A DNA stretch of 64,000 nt from an uncultured Clostridia bacterium (GTDB lineage Bacteria > Bacillota > Clostridia > Christensenellales > Borkfalkiaceae). The position numbers were made by a program, and so were the translations under genes. A model generated the notes under the pieces. The model ran no database searches. It worked only from the letters and a program-made list of their open reading frames with translations, and was not told the origin of the DNA. Position 1 is the first letter of the stretch. Every line of letters starts with the position of its first letter. Positions 41,052 to 63,707 of the stretch are shown here, in pieces. The DNA lies in contig CANRAR010000004.1 of assembly GCA_947628675.1 (NCBI GenBank), forward strand, positions 81,790 through 145,789, written 5' to 3'.

Positions 41052-41080
41052 TTGCAAATTATTTTCCCCCGTGGTAGAAT
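41052..41080 (+). promoter_or_regulatory. Promoter of RNA element copy 1
   Basis: TTGCAA-N17-TAGAAT. Confidence 0.75.
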
Positions 41081-41086
41081 GAACTT

Positions 41087-41222
41087 GCGACACAATAGAA
41101 TACTAACCATATAAAGATACAACGGCGTCGGTGTATCCTTATACCTTATATGGTTAGTTATTGTGTCGCAACAATTCGGGGATACTCGAAGCGGGCGCCT
41201 CGGATTGAGGCGCCCTTATTTT
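41087..41222 (+). ncRNA. Candidate structured leader RNA / attenuator, copy 1
   Basis: 11-bp + 13-bp + 6-bp hairpin 41087-41169, GGGATACTC segment, intrinsic-terminator-like hairpin gggcgcctc-ggatt-gaggcgccc-ttatttt. Confidence 0.7.
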
Positions 41223-41251: not shown

Positions 41252-42811
41252 ATGAAACGGATTTTGGCAGTCTTGCTTGCCTTTGTTACCGCGTTCTGCC
41301 TGTGCTTTGGGCTTGTGGCTTGCGGCGGCAAAGTCGGAAACAACAACAGCGCTGTTGACGGCGGTGGCGGCAACGGCGGCGGCGGTGCCGGCGGCGGTGG
41401 TGGTGGAGCCGGTGGAGGCGGCGGCGGTGCCGGAGGAGGCGGAGACAATAAGCAGAAGCCCGACTTCGTCATGCCCGAGGGCGGCTTCGATACGAGCAAG
41501 CCCGTCACCATTACCTTCTACCACACCATGAACCAAAATCTTCGCATGGTACTCGATTCCGCCATCGAGAAGTTCACCGAGATGTACCCCAACATCACGG
41601 TGAAGCACAAGCAGATCGGCGACTATGACGACGTACGCTATCAGATCATCACCGAGATCAAAGCGGGCAACCAGCCCAACATCGCGTACTGCTGGCTCGA
41701 CCACGTCGCGGACTTCAACACCTACAAGGCAGTCCAACCGCTCGACAATTTCCTCGCAGACGGCGCATACAGCGATTTGAAAGTCACGCAGGCGGACGGC
41801 ACGAAAGTCCCTCTCAACATGACGGCACAGGAGCAGGCAAATTTCATTGAGGCGTTCTTGGCTGAGGGCAAGCAATTCGGGGACGGCAGCACGATGTACA
41901 CGCTTCCCATCTGCAAGTCCACCGAAGTCCTCTATTACAATGTAGATTTCTTCCGTGATAACAACCTGACCGTTCCCACAACGTGGGACGAGATGGAAGA
42001 GGTCTGTGAGCAGATCAAAGAGATTGCCCCCGACGATTTTGCGTTCGGATACGATTCCGAGTCCAACTGGTTCATCACCATGTGCGAGCAGATGAAAGTT
42101 TCGACGGGCAAAGAGTACTACACCTCCTCCACGGGCACCAAGTATTTGTTCGATAACGAGAAGACCCGCGAATTCGTACAGCGTTTCAAGGGTTGGTACG
42201 ATAACGGCTACTTCACCACGAGAGCCCTTTATAGCAACAAGTACACCTCGACCCTCTTCACGGCGGCTTCGGGCGAAAAGTGCTATATGTGCATCGGCTC
42301 TTCTGCGGGTGCGAAAAACCAAGTGCCTACTGGGAATACGTTTGAAGTCGGCATCAAGCCCATTCCCCAACTCGATCCCGCACATCCCAAGGTAATTTCG
42401 CAGGGGCCTTCCGTCTGCATCTTCAAGAATGAGGATCCTCAGAAAGTCCTTGCAAGTTGGCTGCTCGTCAAGTATCTTACGACGAACATTCCGTTCCAGG
42501 CGCAGTTCGCTACGACCTCCGGCTATGTTCCCGTCTTAAAGCAGGATGTTATGCTCACCAACGCGACGTATGCCGACCTTCTCTCCAAAGCCGACGGCGG
42601 CGATCACATTGCCGCGCTTTCGCAGAAAGTTTGTATGGGGCAGACGGCGGCTTACTATACGTCTCCCGCGTTCCCCGGCTCCTCCAAGGCGCGCGAGCAG
42701 GTGGGGCTTCTGATGTGGGCAGTGTTCAGCAACAGCAAGTCGCTCGATACGGCGTTTGCGGATGCCATTGACGAGTGCAAATACGCGTATCCCTCGGAAC
42801 CGTCCGCATAA
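41252..42811 (+). CDS. Extracellular solute-binding lipoprotein (ABC sugar-type, family 1)
   Basis: MKRILAVLLAFVTAFCLCFGLVAC lipobox; Gly-rich linker; VTITFYHTMNQNLRMVLDSAIEKFTEMYPNITVKHKQIGDYDDVRYQI. Confidence 0.88.
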   Translation: MKRILAVLLAFVTAFCLCFGLVACGGKVGNNNSAVDGGGGNGGGGAGGGGGGAGGGGGGAGGGGDNKQKPDFVMPEGGFDTSKPVTITFYHTMNQNLRMVLDSAIEKFTEMYPNITVKHKQIGDYDDVRYQIITEIKAGNQPNIAYCWLDHVADFNTYKAVQPLDNFLADGAYSDLKVTQADGTKVPLNMTAQEQANFIEAFLAEGKQFGDGSTMYTLPICKSTEVLYYNVDFFRDNNLTVPTTWDEMEEVCEQIKEIAPDDFAFGYDSESNWFITMCEQMKVSTGKEYYTSSTGTKYLFDNEKTREFVQRFKGWYDNGYFTTRALYSNKYTSTLFTAASGEKCYMCIGSSAGAKNQVPTGNTFEVGIKPIPQLDPAHPKVISQGPSVCIFKNEDPQKVLASWLLVKYLTTNIPFQAQFATTSGYVPVLKQDVMLTNATYADLLSKADGGDHIAALSQKVCMGQTAAYYTSPAFPGSSKAREQVGLLMWAVFSNSKSLDTAFADAIDECKYAYPSEPSA

Positions 42812-42947: not shown

Positions 42948-43083
42948 GCGACACAATAGAATACTAACCATATAAAGATACAACGGCGTCGGTGTATCCT
43001 TATACCTTATATGGTTAGTTATTGTGTCGCAACAATTCGGGGATACTCGAAGCGGGCGCCTCGGATTGAGGCGTCCTTATTTT
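42948..43083 (+). ncRNA. Candidate structured leader RNA / attenuator, copy 2
   Basis: Near-identical to copy 1 across the whole element (offset 1861 bp). Confidence 0.7.
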
Positions 43084-43111: not shown

Positions 43112-45790
43112 ATGAAACGCAAACTTTTGACGGTGCTGCTCGCGCTTGTCGCCGCACTCTGTCTCTGCCTCGGCCTCGCCGCTTGTGGAAGAAGCAACGA
43201 AGACGACGGGCATGAGCACGTCTACACCGTAGAAAACAAGTGCTCGATCTGCGGCAAGGAATGGGAGTATACCAAATCGGATGCGCTGGAATACACGAAG
43301 GTCGTGTTGGACGGCGTGGAGGGATACGACGTCCGCTTCGGAGTATTTCTTACGGTAAATGTCACATATGATTCGCAGGGATTTCCCACAAATATTGAGC
43401 AAATACCGATCGGCAAGGAACTCGAAGGCGAAGAAGTTGTGTTCCCCTACGGCTACAACGGTCTCCCCGTCATCAGCATCGGGCGGTTTTATCCCTGTAT
43501 GTCGGATACAGTCAAACATATTACCGTGCCCAAGTCCATTCTCTCGTTCGGGCAGAGCATAACCTATCAAAACGGTACGCGCGGCGCATTCCATTGCACG
43601 GCGTTGGAGAAACTCGATCTCCCCGACGGGCTTCCCGTACTTACGCGTCAAGAAATTTCGGCCGATAATGAAGCCACAGTCAATACGGCTTTCCCTCTGT
43701 GTTATAACACATTGTTCTACGATGGCGGAGTGGGCGGGGAATCCTGTCCGCTCTATGAGGATCCCCAATACCGCGAGAACGGCGCGCTGTACATCGGCAA
43801 CTATTTGTTTGAGGCAGACTTTGATGAGCCCGTCGAAAATTATACCGTTAAGGACGGGACAAAGGTCGTCATAAGTCTCCGCGGTGCAAAGCACGTCGTT
43901 TTGCCCGACAGCGTGGAGATAATCGCGCAAGGCGCGTTCAGGAATTCAAGCCTTGAAAGCATCGAGGTAGGAAGCGGCATTGAAGAAATCGGAGGTTATG
44001 TCTTTAATTGGTCTAACCTTACGAGCATCACCCTGCCCGATAAACCCATTTCTATCGGGCAGGGTGCGTTTATGCAAACGCCATTCTTTGAGAATAAAGA
44101 AAATTGGGAATATCTCGGCGAAAAAAGTGCCGATAATTATACTTCCAGTCTTCTTTGCATCGGAAACCACCTGATTTATTTCGCTTGTAGCGCATTCACT
44201 CCGTCTTTTGAAATGAAACCCAACCTGAAATCCATTGCCGGAGATGCGTTTGAATACAGCACCGTCGGTGAGCTGCACATCCCGGATATCGAAACTTGGT
44301 TCAATATCCGCCGCGGCGGAAGTAACGCAACGCCGCGCGCACAGAAATTGATCATCGACGGGCAGGAAACCGCCGCGATCACCATTCCTTCATCCGTGAC
44401 GGAGATCCCCGATTATGCCTTTGCGCGCATGGAATCTCTGACAAGTGTTACCCTGCACGACGGCGTGACCAAAATCGGGGACGGAGCGTTTTTATCCTGT
44501 GAAAATCTTACGGGTATCACGATCCCGAGCGGCGTGACAAAAATCGGAACAAACGCGTTCGGCAATTGCTATAAACTTGCAAGCATCAACGTTTCCGAGG
44601 CAAATCCCAATTACGCAAGCGAAAACGGAATTTTATACAACAAAGCAAAGAACCACATCGTAACGGTGCCGACGGGCTTAACAGGAGCAGTCGTTCTCCC
44701 CAACAGTCTGACTTCGATTGAATATTTTGCGTTTTATAATTGTTACGGCATAACGAGCATCGAGATCCCCGCCGGCGTAACTTCGATCAATGCATACTGG
44801 TTGAATGGTTGTACTGCACTTGCAAGCATCTCTGTTGGCGCAAACAACCCGAATTACAGCAGCCAAGACGGGATTCTATACAATAAGGATAAGACGAAAA
44901 TTGTATGTATTCCGCCTTCGGTTACGGGCGCGATAACCATTCCGGATAGTTTAACTTCGATCGATAGTGGGACGTTCGGTAATTGCACCAAGCTTACGAG
45001 CATCACCGTTGGCGCAAATAACCCGAATTATAGTAGTCAAGACGGGATCTTATACAACAAAGATAAGACGGAAATTGTCTGTGTCCCTCGTGCGATCACG
45101 GGCGCGGTGACCATTCCCGACAGCATTACTACGATTGACAGTTGGACGTTCAGTAATTGCACCAAGCTTACGAGCATCTCCGTTGGCGCAAACCACCCCA
45201 ATTACAGCAGCCAAGACGGGATTCTGTACAACAAAGATAAGACGGAAATCGTATATGTTCCTCTTGCGATCACGGGCACGGTAACGATCCCCGACACCGT
45301 GACCAGGATCGATTATGAGTTCAATAATTGTTATGGCATTACGAGCATAGAGATCCCCGCCAGCGTAACCTCGATCTACGGAACGTTTTCGGGTTGTAGC
45401 GCACTTACAGGCTTCACGGTGGACGCAAACAACCCCAATTATAGTAGCCAAGACGGTATTTTGTACAACAAAAATAAAACGGAAATTTTACGTGTTCCTC
45501 CTACGGTAACGGGCACAGTAACCATTCCCGACGGCGTGACCTCGATTAACTATGGGGCGTTCGAGAATTGCACCGGGATTACGAGCCTTATAATTCCGAA
45601 TAGCGTGACTTCCATTAATTATGCACCGTTTGAGGATAGCAAAAACCTTACGGATATTCAATTCAAAGGAACTGTAGAGGAGTGGCAAGCCATGGACAAG
45701 AACGTTTATTGGGATAACGGTCTCGGCGATTACACCATCACTTGCACGAATGGAAAAATCGCCAAAGACGGCACCGTAACAATGAACTGA
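43112..45790 (+). CDS. BspA-type leucine-rich-repeat surface lipoprotein
   Basis: MKRKLLTVLLALVAALCLCLGLAAC lipobox; repeated VTIPDSVTSIxxxAFxxCxxLTSI and NYSSQDGILYNKDKTEI units. Confidence 0.9.
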   Translation: MKRKLLTVLLALVAALCLCLGLAACGRSNEDDGHEHVYTVENKCSICGKEWEYTKSDALEYTKVVLDGVEGYDVRFGVFLTVNVTYDSQGFPTNIEQIPIGKELEGEEVVFPYGYNGLPVISIGRFYPCMSDTVKHITVPKSILSFGQSITYQNGTRGAFHCTALEKLDLPDGLPVLTRQEISADNEATVNTAFPLCYNTLFYDGGVGGESCPLYEDPQYRENGALYIGNYLFEADFDEPVENYTVKDGTKVVISLRGAKHVVLPDSVEIIAQGAFRNSSLESIEVGSGIEEIGGYVFNWSNLTSITLPDKPISIGQGAFMQTPFFENKENWEYLGEKSADNYTSSLLCIGNHLIYFACSAFTPSFEMKPNLKSIAGDAFEYSTVGELHIPDIETWFNIRRGGSNATPRAQKLIIDGQETAAITIPSSVTEIPDYAFARMESLTSVTLHDGVTKIGDGAFLSCENLTGITIPSGVTKIGTNAFGNCYKLASINVSEANPNYASENGILYNKAKNHIVTVPTGLTGAVVLPNSLTSIEYFAFYNCYGITSIEIPAGVTSINAYWLNGCTALASISVGANNPNYSSQDGILYNKDKTKIVCIPPSVTGAITIPDSLTSIDSGTFGNCTKLTSITVGANNPNYSSQDGILYNKDKTEIVCVPRAITGAVTIPDSITTIDSWTFSNCTKLTSISVGANHPNYSSQDGILYNKDKTEIVYVPLAITGTVTIPDTVTRIDYEFNNCYGITSIEIPASVTSIYGTFSGCSALTGFTVDANNPNYSSQDGILYNKNKTEILRVPPTVTGTVTIPDGVTSINYGAFENCTGITSLIIPNSVTSINYAPFEDSKNLTDIQFKGTVEEWQAMDKNVYWDNGLGDYTITCTNGKIAKDGTVTMN

Positions 45791-61895: not shown

Positions 61896-63443
61896 TTATT
61901 GCCGCGTCCAATTATAATTAGAATAGAGATCGCGCAAGTATTCCGCGGCAGTCGTTGCGTTTTGAAGAACGTCACGCAATAGTGCTGTTTCGCCCGCGCT
62001 CCACCCGTTCGGGTTCACAAACGTCACGCTGTTAAGATTATCGCACGACAAAAATGCCTGATACCCTATGGAAGCCACATTTTCCCCAATCGTCACGCTC
62101 GTCAGCATGGCGCACTCCCAAAACGCATTATGCCCAATCGAAGTCACGTCTTTACCAATTGTCACGCTTTCCAGCCCGCTACAAAAAGAGAACGCATTAT
62201 CCCCAATCGAAGTCACGCCGTCGGGAATTTTCAACGTCCCCGTCAACCCGCTACACCCCTCAAACGCCGCATACCCAATCGAGGTCACGCCACTCCCGAT
62301 CGTCACGCTCGTCAGCCCGCTGCACCCCCCGAACGCATTATTTTTGATTTCTTTGATCTCCGCAGGGATCGTAAGATCTTTTACTTCCACGCCATCCAAA
62401 TAGAGATGGTGCGCGCAGTAAAGCGGATTGGCGGTGATCTCCTCGACTCCAAAATCAATTTTACACCACGCCGCAAGGTCGGTAATATATACTCCCGTCA
62501 GCCCACTGCAACCACTGAACGCCCTATCCCCAATCGAGGTCACGCCACTCCCGATCGTCACACTTTCAAGCCCACTGCAACCATAAAACGCCTCCTTTCC
62601 AATCGAGGTCACACCGCTTCCAATCGTCACGCTCGTCAGGCCACCGCAATAATTGAACGCACTCTCTCCTATCTCGGTCACGCTCTCGGGAATTTTCAAT
62701 TCTCCCGTCAACCCGCTACACCACCAGAACGCCTCCTTCCCAATCGAAGTTACGCTGTCGGGAATTTCAATGCTCGTCAGACCACCGCACCTGTTGAAAG
62801 CACTATCCCCAATCGAGGTCACGCTGTCGGGAATATTAATGCTCGTCAGCTCGATGCAACCATTAAACGCATAGTTTCCGATCGAGGTCACGCTATCGGG
62901 AATGGAAATGCTCGTCAAATCACTGTGGTCGTAAAATGCACGATCGGCGATCGCCGTAACGGGAATACCGCGGTAAGTCGCGGGAATGACGATATCGAGG
63001 TCATAGGCGATTCCGATGCCCACAACTTCCAACGTCTCTTCGCCCGTCGGGCTTCGCCGCATACGGTATGCAAGCCCCTCCGTTCCCTCCGCTTGCGCAG
63101 GCGCGCCCGATACCTCTCCTGCATCAAGCACGTTGCCGTCCGTGAGCGTCAAGTACAGATGTCCGTCTTCACCGACTTCTGCCGACTGGATCCCGACGCC
63201 GTTTCGTCCGTCTTTCCCGTCTGCGCCGTCCTTGCCGTCTGCTCCCTTGAAAAGCGCGACGAGGTCATCAAACGAGCCCTCAAATCCGAGCGCCTTTGCC
63301 TCGGCGTAGAGCCGTTCCGCCGTCCAAAGGTCATCTCCGCCCGAAGGCTCCTGCGGGGTCTTTTCTCCGCACGCCGCGAGGCCGAAGCAGAGGCACAGAG
63401 CCGCGACGATTGCCAAAAGTACGGTTAAAAACTTCTTTTTCAT
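61896..63443 (-). CDS. BspA-type leucine-rich-repeat surface lipoprotein
   Basis: MKKKFLTVLLAIVAALCLCFGLAAC lipobox; collagen-like GADGKDGADGKDGRNG; many SIPDSVTSIGxxAFxxCxGLTS repeats. Confidence 0.92.
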   Translation of the reverse strand: MKKKFLTVLLAIVAALCLCFGLAACGEKTPQEPSGGDDLWTAERLYAEAKALGFEGSFDDLVALFKGADGKDGADGKDGRNGVGIQSAEVGEDGHLYLTLTDGNVLDAGEVSGAPAQAEGTEGLAYRMRRSPTGEETLEVVGIGIAYDLDIVIPATYRGIPVTAIADRAFYDHSDLTSISIPDSVTSIGNYAFNGCIELTSINIPDSVTSIGDSAFNRCGGLTSIEIPDSVTSIGKEAFWWCSGLTGELKIPESVTEIGESAFNYCGGLTSVTIGSGVTSIGKEAFYGCSGLESVTIGSGVTSIGDRAFSGCSGLTGVYITDLAAWCKIDFGVEEITANPLYCAHHLYLDGVEVKDLTIPAEIKEIKNNAFGGCSGLTSVTIGSGVTSIGYAAFEGCSGLTGTLKIPDGVTSIGDNAFSFCSGLESVTIGKDVTSIGHNAFWECAMLTSVTIGENVASIGYQAFLSCDNLNSVTFVNPNGWSAGETALLRDVLQNATTAAEYLRDLYSNYNWTRQ

Positions 63444-63529
63444 GGGGTATCTCCTTTTCCGCGGGCAAAATTGCGTTTTTTTTGAGATTTCTCGACTTCG
63501 CTACGCTTCGCTCGAAATGACAAATCGGC

Positions 63530-63672
63530 AAAAATAAGGACGCCCGACAATATCGGGCGCCCGCATAGAGTATCCCGAGATTGTTGCGGTACAATTTCCT
63601 CCATAAACGGAAAATAGGATACACCAAATGCCAGTGTAGCCGTTTATGGAGCAAAATATGAAATTGTACCGC
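63530..63672 (-). ncRNA. Candidate structured leader RNA / attenuator, copy 3 (diverged)
   Basis: Hairpin 63586-63672 GCGGTACAATTT...AAATTGTACCGC, CTCGGGATACTC segment, terminator-like GGGCGCCCGA-TATTG-TCGGGCGTCC-TTATTTTT. Confidence 0.68.
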
Positions 63673-63678
63673 ACTGTC

Positions 63679-63707
63679 AGTATATCACGCCCGAAAAAAT
63701 TTTGCAA
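63679..63707 (-). promoter_or_regulatory. Promoter of RNA element copy 3
   Basis: TTGCAA-N17-TATACT on minus strand. Confidence 0.75.

Follow-up and report, generated by a model that had tools for sequence, protein, structure and literature searches.

Transcription-terminating and orphan riboswitches are structured 5' leaders in which a pseudoknot and alternative antiterminator and terminator structures lie directly before a gene. The element described here shares these features but matches no known class, its ligand is unknown, and its regulon is made up of accessory surface and phage-cargo genes and not of one pathway. It also follows the four-segment logic of the trp/ilv leader attenuators (1:2, 2:3 and 3:4 pairings); unlike them, it has no leader peptide, its RNA starts in stem P1, and the 2:3 pairing is a pseudoknot across P1 and P2. 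The JUMPstart/ops-RfaH and LoaP leaders are known as cases where one RNA or DNA element precedes many unrelated surface or secreted gene clusters and controls elongation. The present element likewise stands before many unrelated gene clusters, but it has a local intrinsic terminator/antiterminator switch inside a covarying RNA. Type III toxin-antitoxin loci (ToxI before ToxN) are similar in having a pseudoknotted RNA with its own promoter and terminator before a gene, and in their presence in Clostridia and phages. In contrast to ToxI, the element lacks short tandem antitoxin repeats, has an antiterminator, and is followed by genes that are not ToxN-like; the ToxN family was absent from the Pfam families of the 88 and 54 downstream proteins (the 25 commonest per set were listed).

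No match to Rfam 15 was obtained at gathering scores in the window, and 20 class- and order-level loci matched tRNAs only; no T-box leader model was matched in the Rfam scans. Permissive scans at low thresholds returned only chance matches, far below threshold, which were rejected. The open-access literature that we searched held no description of the motif (subscription papers and supplements were outside our reach). Metagenomic RNA motifs from gut Clostridia are described in a study of candidate structured RNAs of human microbiomes (PMC8040213), the main text of which, supplements excluded, names no motif with the anatomy or regulon of the element. Attenuators and orphan riboswitch-like leaders are already a known kind; the class itself appears to be new, as do its four-segment code built on a pseudoknot, its spread across Clostridia and its carriage by phages. 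Our best explanation, likely but made without expression data, is that the element acts in cis as a riboswitch-like attenuator of transcription with its own promoter, serving accessory surface lipoproteins, zinc-ribbon membrane proteins and phage cargo.

Element copies in the window

The window, i.e., the whole 64,000-nt stretch of DNA that was analysed, held three copies of the element with the following features.

63531-63672, minus strand: element copy 3, all stems present
63702..63707, minus strand: -35 box TTGCAA in the promoter of copy 3, read in the sequence, with a 17-nt spacer to the -10 box
63679..63684, minus strand: -10 box TATACT of copy 3, 6 nt before P1
63661..63672, minus strand: P1 5' strand GCGGTACAATTT, predicted RNA 5' end, supported by covariation
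63586..63597, minus strand: P1 3' strand AAATTGTACCGC, supported by covariation
63640..63651, minus strand: P2 5' strand CTCCATAAACGG, supported by covariation
63599..63610, minus strand: P2 3' strand CCGTTTATGGAG, supported by covariation
63634..63638, minus strand: segment X (UACAC), P3 5' strand, supported by native versus swapped partners and pair counting
63628..63632, minus strand: P3 loop GGCAU, conserved in the family; GGUAAAA in class-level members
63617..63625, minus strand: segment Y (GGUGUAUCC), partner of X (P3) or Z (pseudoknot)
63568..63585, minus strand: segment Z (AACAAUCUCGGGAUACUC), partner of Y (pseudoknot) or T (antiterminator)
63538..63562, minus strand: intrinsic terminator hairpin GGGCGCCCGA/TCGGGCGTCC, the 5' arm and loop of which are segment T, antiterminator partner of Z
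61896..63443, minus strand: LRR_5/BspA-type lipoprotein gene (515 aa) after copy 3, putatively controlled by it, its ATG at 63443 preceded by AAAGGAG
41087..41222, plus strand: element copy 1, promoter -10 box at 41075-41080
41252..42811, plus strand: solute-binding lipoprotein (SBP_bac_8) gene after copy 1, putatively controlled by it
42948..43083, plus strand: element copy 2, the second copy of the window
43112..45790, plus strand: LRR_5 lipoprotein gene after copy 2, putatively controlled by it

An earlier note on the minus-strand element at 63531-63672 had claimed a set of stems, all of which were present, a terminator, which was present too, and a -10 spacing equal to that of the other copies, which also held (TATACT is 6 nt from P1, and copies 1 and 2 have equal spacing). 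Its consensus for the loop segment failed by one base, copies 1 and 2 having GGCGTCGGTGTATCC; when this consensus was used as a search pattern, only copy 3 was retrieved. The description as a third copy was understated, the genome total being 10. The claim that the unpaired segments are conserved held in part: they are conserved, yet pieces of them form P3, the pseudoknot and the antiterminator. That an attenuator would switch through these pieces was absent from the note.

Copies 1 and 2 lie in a 231-nt duplication that includes the promoter and is 93% identical. Being a recent duplication, they are not mutually independent, and the real comparison is between two diverged types. Both types folded far more stably than their shuffles (copy 3, z -6.8; copy 1, z -9.2).

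Three further observations concern sequences in and around individual copies. A palindromic repeat (TCGACTTCGCTACGCTTCGCTCGAAATGAC, 63484-63525) is inserted between the copy 3 terminator and the ribosome-binding site, with one further copy in the genome on contig C12. A Gly-rich low-complexity linker (GGGGAGGGG...) follows the lipobox of the solute-binding lipoprotein of copy 1 (window positions 41349-41441). Some copies of the element represented by loci L043 and L162 carry an extra complete hairpin (CCGATATATCGG) on the 3' side of the P1-P2 junction.

Covariation in the stems

Covariation above background was detected with our own R-scape-like script, not R-scape itself; it combined FastTree, Fitch ancestral states, within-branch shuffling of substitutions and an APC-corrected G-test. 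The family alignment (104 sequences) gave 15 column pairs at E<0.05, every one in P1, P2 or the terminator, and the order/class alignment (61 sequences) gave approximately 20 significant pairs, one of them in P3. Significant pairs were confined to P1, P2, P3 or the terminator in this phylogeny-aware test. By pair counting, 94.4 and 95.2% of cells were paired in the two alignments; doubly changed cells numbered 881 and 604, compared with 249 and 168 in shuffles. None of 500 shuffles came up to the observed values, and slid controls collapsed. By parsimony, P1 had 118 and P2 186 double changes along branches. The earlier claim of compensatory changes in every stem held, with significant covariation in P1, P2 and the terminator, and the claimed selection on RNA structure was strongly supported by the phylogeny-aware test and pair counting together. 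The alignments were fitted with a covariance model and are biased towards P1, P2, P3 and the terminator; no such bias applies to the Y:Z and Z:T pairings considered below. Across the class, GCGACACAA/UUGUGUCGC, an AUA bulge and a GGC/GGU loop were conserved.

Mutually exclusive pairings of four segments

Four segments formed exclusive pairings: X:Y (P3), Y:Z (pseudoknot), Z:T (antiterminator) and T:T' (terminator). In copy 3, X (UACAC) and Y (GGUGUAUCC) make up P3, and Z (GGGAUAC) is a second complement of Y; Z plus the upstream CAAU is complementary to T, the terminator 5' arm and loop. Full X:Y and Y:Z cannot form together because they share three columns. Z pairs with Y or T, never both, and T pairs with Z or its own 3' arm, never both.

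Native duplexes were stronger than foreign ones in 107 family copies (Z:T -17.2 vs. -11.3, Y:Z -10.6 vs. -9.3 and X:Y -5.5 vs. -4.4 kcal/mol) and in 115 copies from the class level and from phages (Z:T -17.8 vs. -11.5, Y:Z -14.0 vs. -8.9 and X:Y -10.9 vs. -5.6 kcal/mol). When partners were permuted across all sequences of the class-level/phage set, z was -20 for X:Y, -17 for Y:Z and -22 for Z:T, compared with +0.5 and -1.2 for the control pairings X:Z and Y:T.

Because permutation across related sequences can mislead, relatedness was controlled for by taking disjoint tip pairs on the tree and counting wins of native over swapped partners. In the class-level/phage set, native partners won 39 vs. 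6 for X:Y (P 2.7e-7), 34 vs. 10 for Y:Z (P 1.9e-4) and 40 vs. 4 for Z:T (P 8.5e-9), and control pairings in the same pairs were flat (X:Z 26 vs. 20, Y:T 21 vs. 22, X:T 24 vs. 22). Only Z:T was significant among independent pairs of the family set (27 vs. 11, P 0.007); X:Y was weak (19 vs. 16), Y:Z was not significant (16 vs. 15), and parsimony placed no Y:Z double change on any single branch of the family. The family level alone would therefore not prove the pseudoknot, and this claim rests on the class-level/phage set.

Y:Z had 94.5% of cells paired, including CG to UA and UA to CG changes. At class level, Y and Z vary greatly yet match each other, e.g., CGUUAGUCUC with GAGGCUAGCG in locus L252, and pseudoknots of up to 15-17 bp occur with quite different sequences. 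The class-level pseudoknot was judged by partner swapping, since the covariance model sets Y and Z in the wrong register at this level; the boundaries of X, Y, Z and T came from automatic cutting, and some were mis-set. Extension of the pseudoknot by pairing of the P3 loop with the tail of Z was not significant in the family (z -1.4) and modest in the class (z -4.8).

The antiterminator had a mean energy of -11.6 to -13.2 kcal/mol and is able to form before the 3' arm of the terminator has been made; the complete terminator was usually stronger (mean -16 to -17 kcal/mol). Such a balance is usual for attenuators.

A mobile inverted-repeat (MITE-like) element, or nothing more than recent duplications, is all but excluded by these results. 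The 231-nt duplication of copies 1 and 2 and the multiple copies in genomes and phages speak for it. However, orientation and distance to promoter and gene are fixed, strongly diverged copies carry compensatory changes, no terminal repeats were noticed outside P1, and the Y:Z and Z:T results contradict it.

Promoter and downstream start codon

The layout around the element was constant across the 187 copies. The gap between the end of the -10 box and P1 was 6 or 7 nt in 151 of 180 distinct upstream regions, indicating that the RNA starts at P1. Of the 180 distinct copies, 129 had a -35/-10 spacer of 17 nt, 30 had one of 18 nt, and 146 (81%) had an extended -10 (TGn). We infer from sequence alone that the promoter is of the sigma-A type and that each transcript would begin 6-7 nt past the -10 box and end at the intrinsic terminator. 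A Shine-Dalgarno sequence and start codon followed within 60 nt in 135 of 187 copies (72%); the corresponding figure was 13% for random positions and 3% for the upstream side. Median distances to the start were 32 nt (family) and 18 nt (class set).

A ribosome-mediated (leader-peptide) attenuator of the trp/ilv type would share the 1:2/2:3/3:4 logic, but we regard it as very unlikely. ORFs with a Shine-Dalgarno sequence and start were rarer than or similar to those in shuffles (0.19 vs. 0.33 and 0.38 vs. 0.43 in two large sets), AUG ORFs occurred in 5-7% of leaders, and the criterion of a conserved short ORF in the leader was not met. Since P1 begins at the RNA 5' end, there is no room for a ribosome site in the leader.

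In a second alternative, the terminated 140-nt product would act in trans as a standalone small RNA, and its proximity to genes would be incidental. The element's own promoter and terminator, and the great stability that the terminated product would have, favour this reading. It is nevertheless highly improbable: a same-strand start codon lies within 60 nt in 72% of copies where 13% is expected, conservation of an antiterminator makes no sense for a plain small RNA, and Y and Z vary between copies within one genome, from which we infer that a trans-acting antisense RNA is unlikely.

Occurrence in genomes and phages

DNA searches and covariance model R1 found the 10 copies in the 1.53 Mb source genome, 3 of them in the window. 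With R1, the element was present in 63 of 151 genomes of the family and in 12 of its 18 genera, at up to 13 copies per genome. Model R2, built from 107 members, found it in 95 of 396 genomes of the order sample and 69 of 392 of the class sample (Clostridia). Across the class, copies number in the hundreds. None of the approximately 385 sampled genomes of the phylum outside the class matched; the sole match at E<=0.001 in the phylum sample (399 genomes, almost all outside the class) was the window's own genome, so this near-empty sample served as a useful negative control. In a scan of named-genome sequences, almost all matches were rabbit-gut MAGs labelled uncultured Clostridia bacterium.

A short pattern matched 17 IMG/VR contigs, and the full element was present in all 17. 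A blastn search of phage and plasmid records with a class-level element returned no match, although the IMG/VR contigs do match. Phage contigs with the element carried tape-measure, helicase, NrdD and HNH genes, and the element lay before a variable cargo gene (a DUF6591 lipoprotein or PASTA protein) adjoining conserved phage genes. By analogy, this arrangement of element and cargo resembles a moron. At loci L301, L302, L306 and L311, the element and a swapped cargo gene were seen near a conserved VRR-NUC-like endonuclease gene, most of them also having a large gene that PHROGs labels as RNA-dependent RNA polymerase.

At nine loci (L122, L089, L120, L130, L135, L155, L261, L289 and L293), tandem elements separated by roughly 200-300 nt precede a single gene, and their Y/Z types often differ. 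The second copy had its own promoter in all four tandem loci that were checked.

Genes downstream of the element

The 88 downstream proteins at family level included 28 with LRR_5, about 13 of zinc-ribbon families, 7 with the Listeria-Bacteroides (InlB-like) repeat and 5 with DUF6273, and a simple pattern found a lipoprotein-like N-terminus in 63 of 104 downstream proteins. At least 6 of the 10 elements of the source genome precede LRR_5 genes, of which the genome has about 18. Class-level downstream genes were more mixed (LRR_5, PASTA, DUF6591, AbrB/MazE-like, M23). As a whole, the downstream genes were varied surface, phage-cargo and regulatory genes, without a common metabolism or a pointer to a single metabolite. 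Two protein types recurred: zinc-ribbon membrane proteins (MxxCxxCGTEFEGxFCPxCG; L043, L105, L111, L118, L123, L131, L136, L157 and L169), and, after class-level elements, small Cys-rich proteins (ITGIxLTPGNxGKDCxGNG ... ECCCDECDY; L237, L259 and L268).

Discussion

The promoter, stems P1-P3, the terminator, gene adjacency and the compensatory conservation of X:Y, Y:Z and Z:T are supported computationally, with Y and Z each taking part in two alternative pairings. Two defining features of riboswitches were present, namely a sensor domain of conserved structure within the 5' leader and an expression platform with mutually exclusive structures (by native versus swapped partners with null controls). 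So was the defining feature of an attenuator, an intrinsic terminator that sits between promoter and gene and competes with an antiterminator. The assignment of ON and OFF states, conditional termination in vivo and the existence of an effector are inferences made without expression data. In the proposed mechanism, P1-P2-P3 would be the first part to be transcribed and folded, and would serve as the sensor. As long as P3 (X:Y) is kept, Z would remain free to form the Z:T antiterminator, and RNA polymerase would read through into the adjacent gene, for a lipoprotein or another accessory product (ON). If Y captures Z as the pseudoknot, the terminator would form (OFF). An effector common to all copies, of unknown identity, would bias X:Y against Y:Z.

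Two sub-forms of this attenuator were considered, and the data do not decide between them. In the first, a small-molecule or ion riboswitch proper, P1-P2-P3 would bind a ligand in a pocket made of the bulge (AAUA), the P3 loop and P1 sequence. We find this plausible but do not favour it, in the absence of binding data. It is supported by the compactness of the pseudoknotted leader and its classic expression platform, by the class-wide conservation of GCGACACAA/UUGUGUCGC, the AUA bulge and the GGC/GGU loop, and by tandem copies at several loci, which are common among riboswitches. Against it, the putatively controlled genes are diverse with no metabolism in common, the conserved loop is possibly a pairing partner of Z in class-level members (z -4.8), and the examined tandem copies each have their own promoter.

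In the second, a trans-acting RNA-binding protein or a modified elongation complex would read P1/P2 and select P3 or the pseudoknot, a possibility that we likewise find plausible but do not favour. Sequence conservation within paired P1 and the bulge is in its favour, and many copies per genome before unrelated accessory genes suggest a global regulator; JUMPstart/RfaH or LoaP-type control of surface operons is a comparable case. However, no candidate protein was identified, and phage-borne copies would need a host protein usable across many genera.

A bolder form of the attenuator reading can be offered only tentatively, and we lean slightly against it: a Clostridia-specific riboswitch-like class would form a portable promoter-sensor-terminator cassette on chromosomes and phages, placing accessory genes all under one host signal.

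Spread widely through Clostridia, a class that dominates animal guts, the element reaches 13 copies per genome, is also phage-borne and has no entry in Rfam 15. Its four-segment code, in which the competing arm is a pseudoknot, allows clear predictions of what each mutant would do. As an orphan switch it is well supported, its ligand or protein partner can be sought directly, and it gives a testable handle on the switching of surface-protein and cargo genes in mostly uncultured bacteria and their phages.
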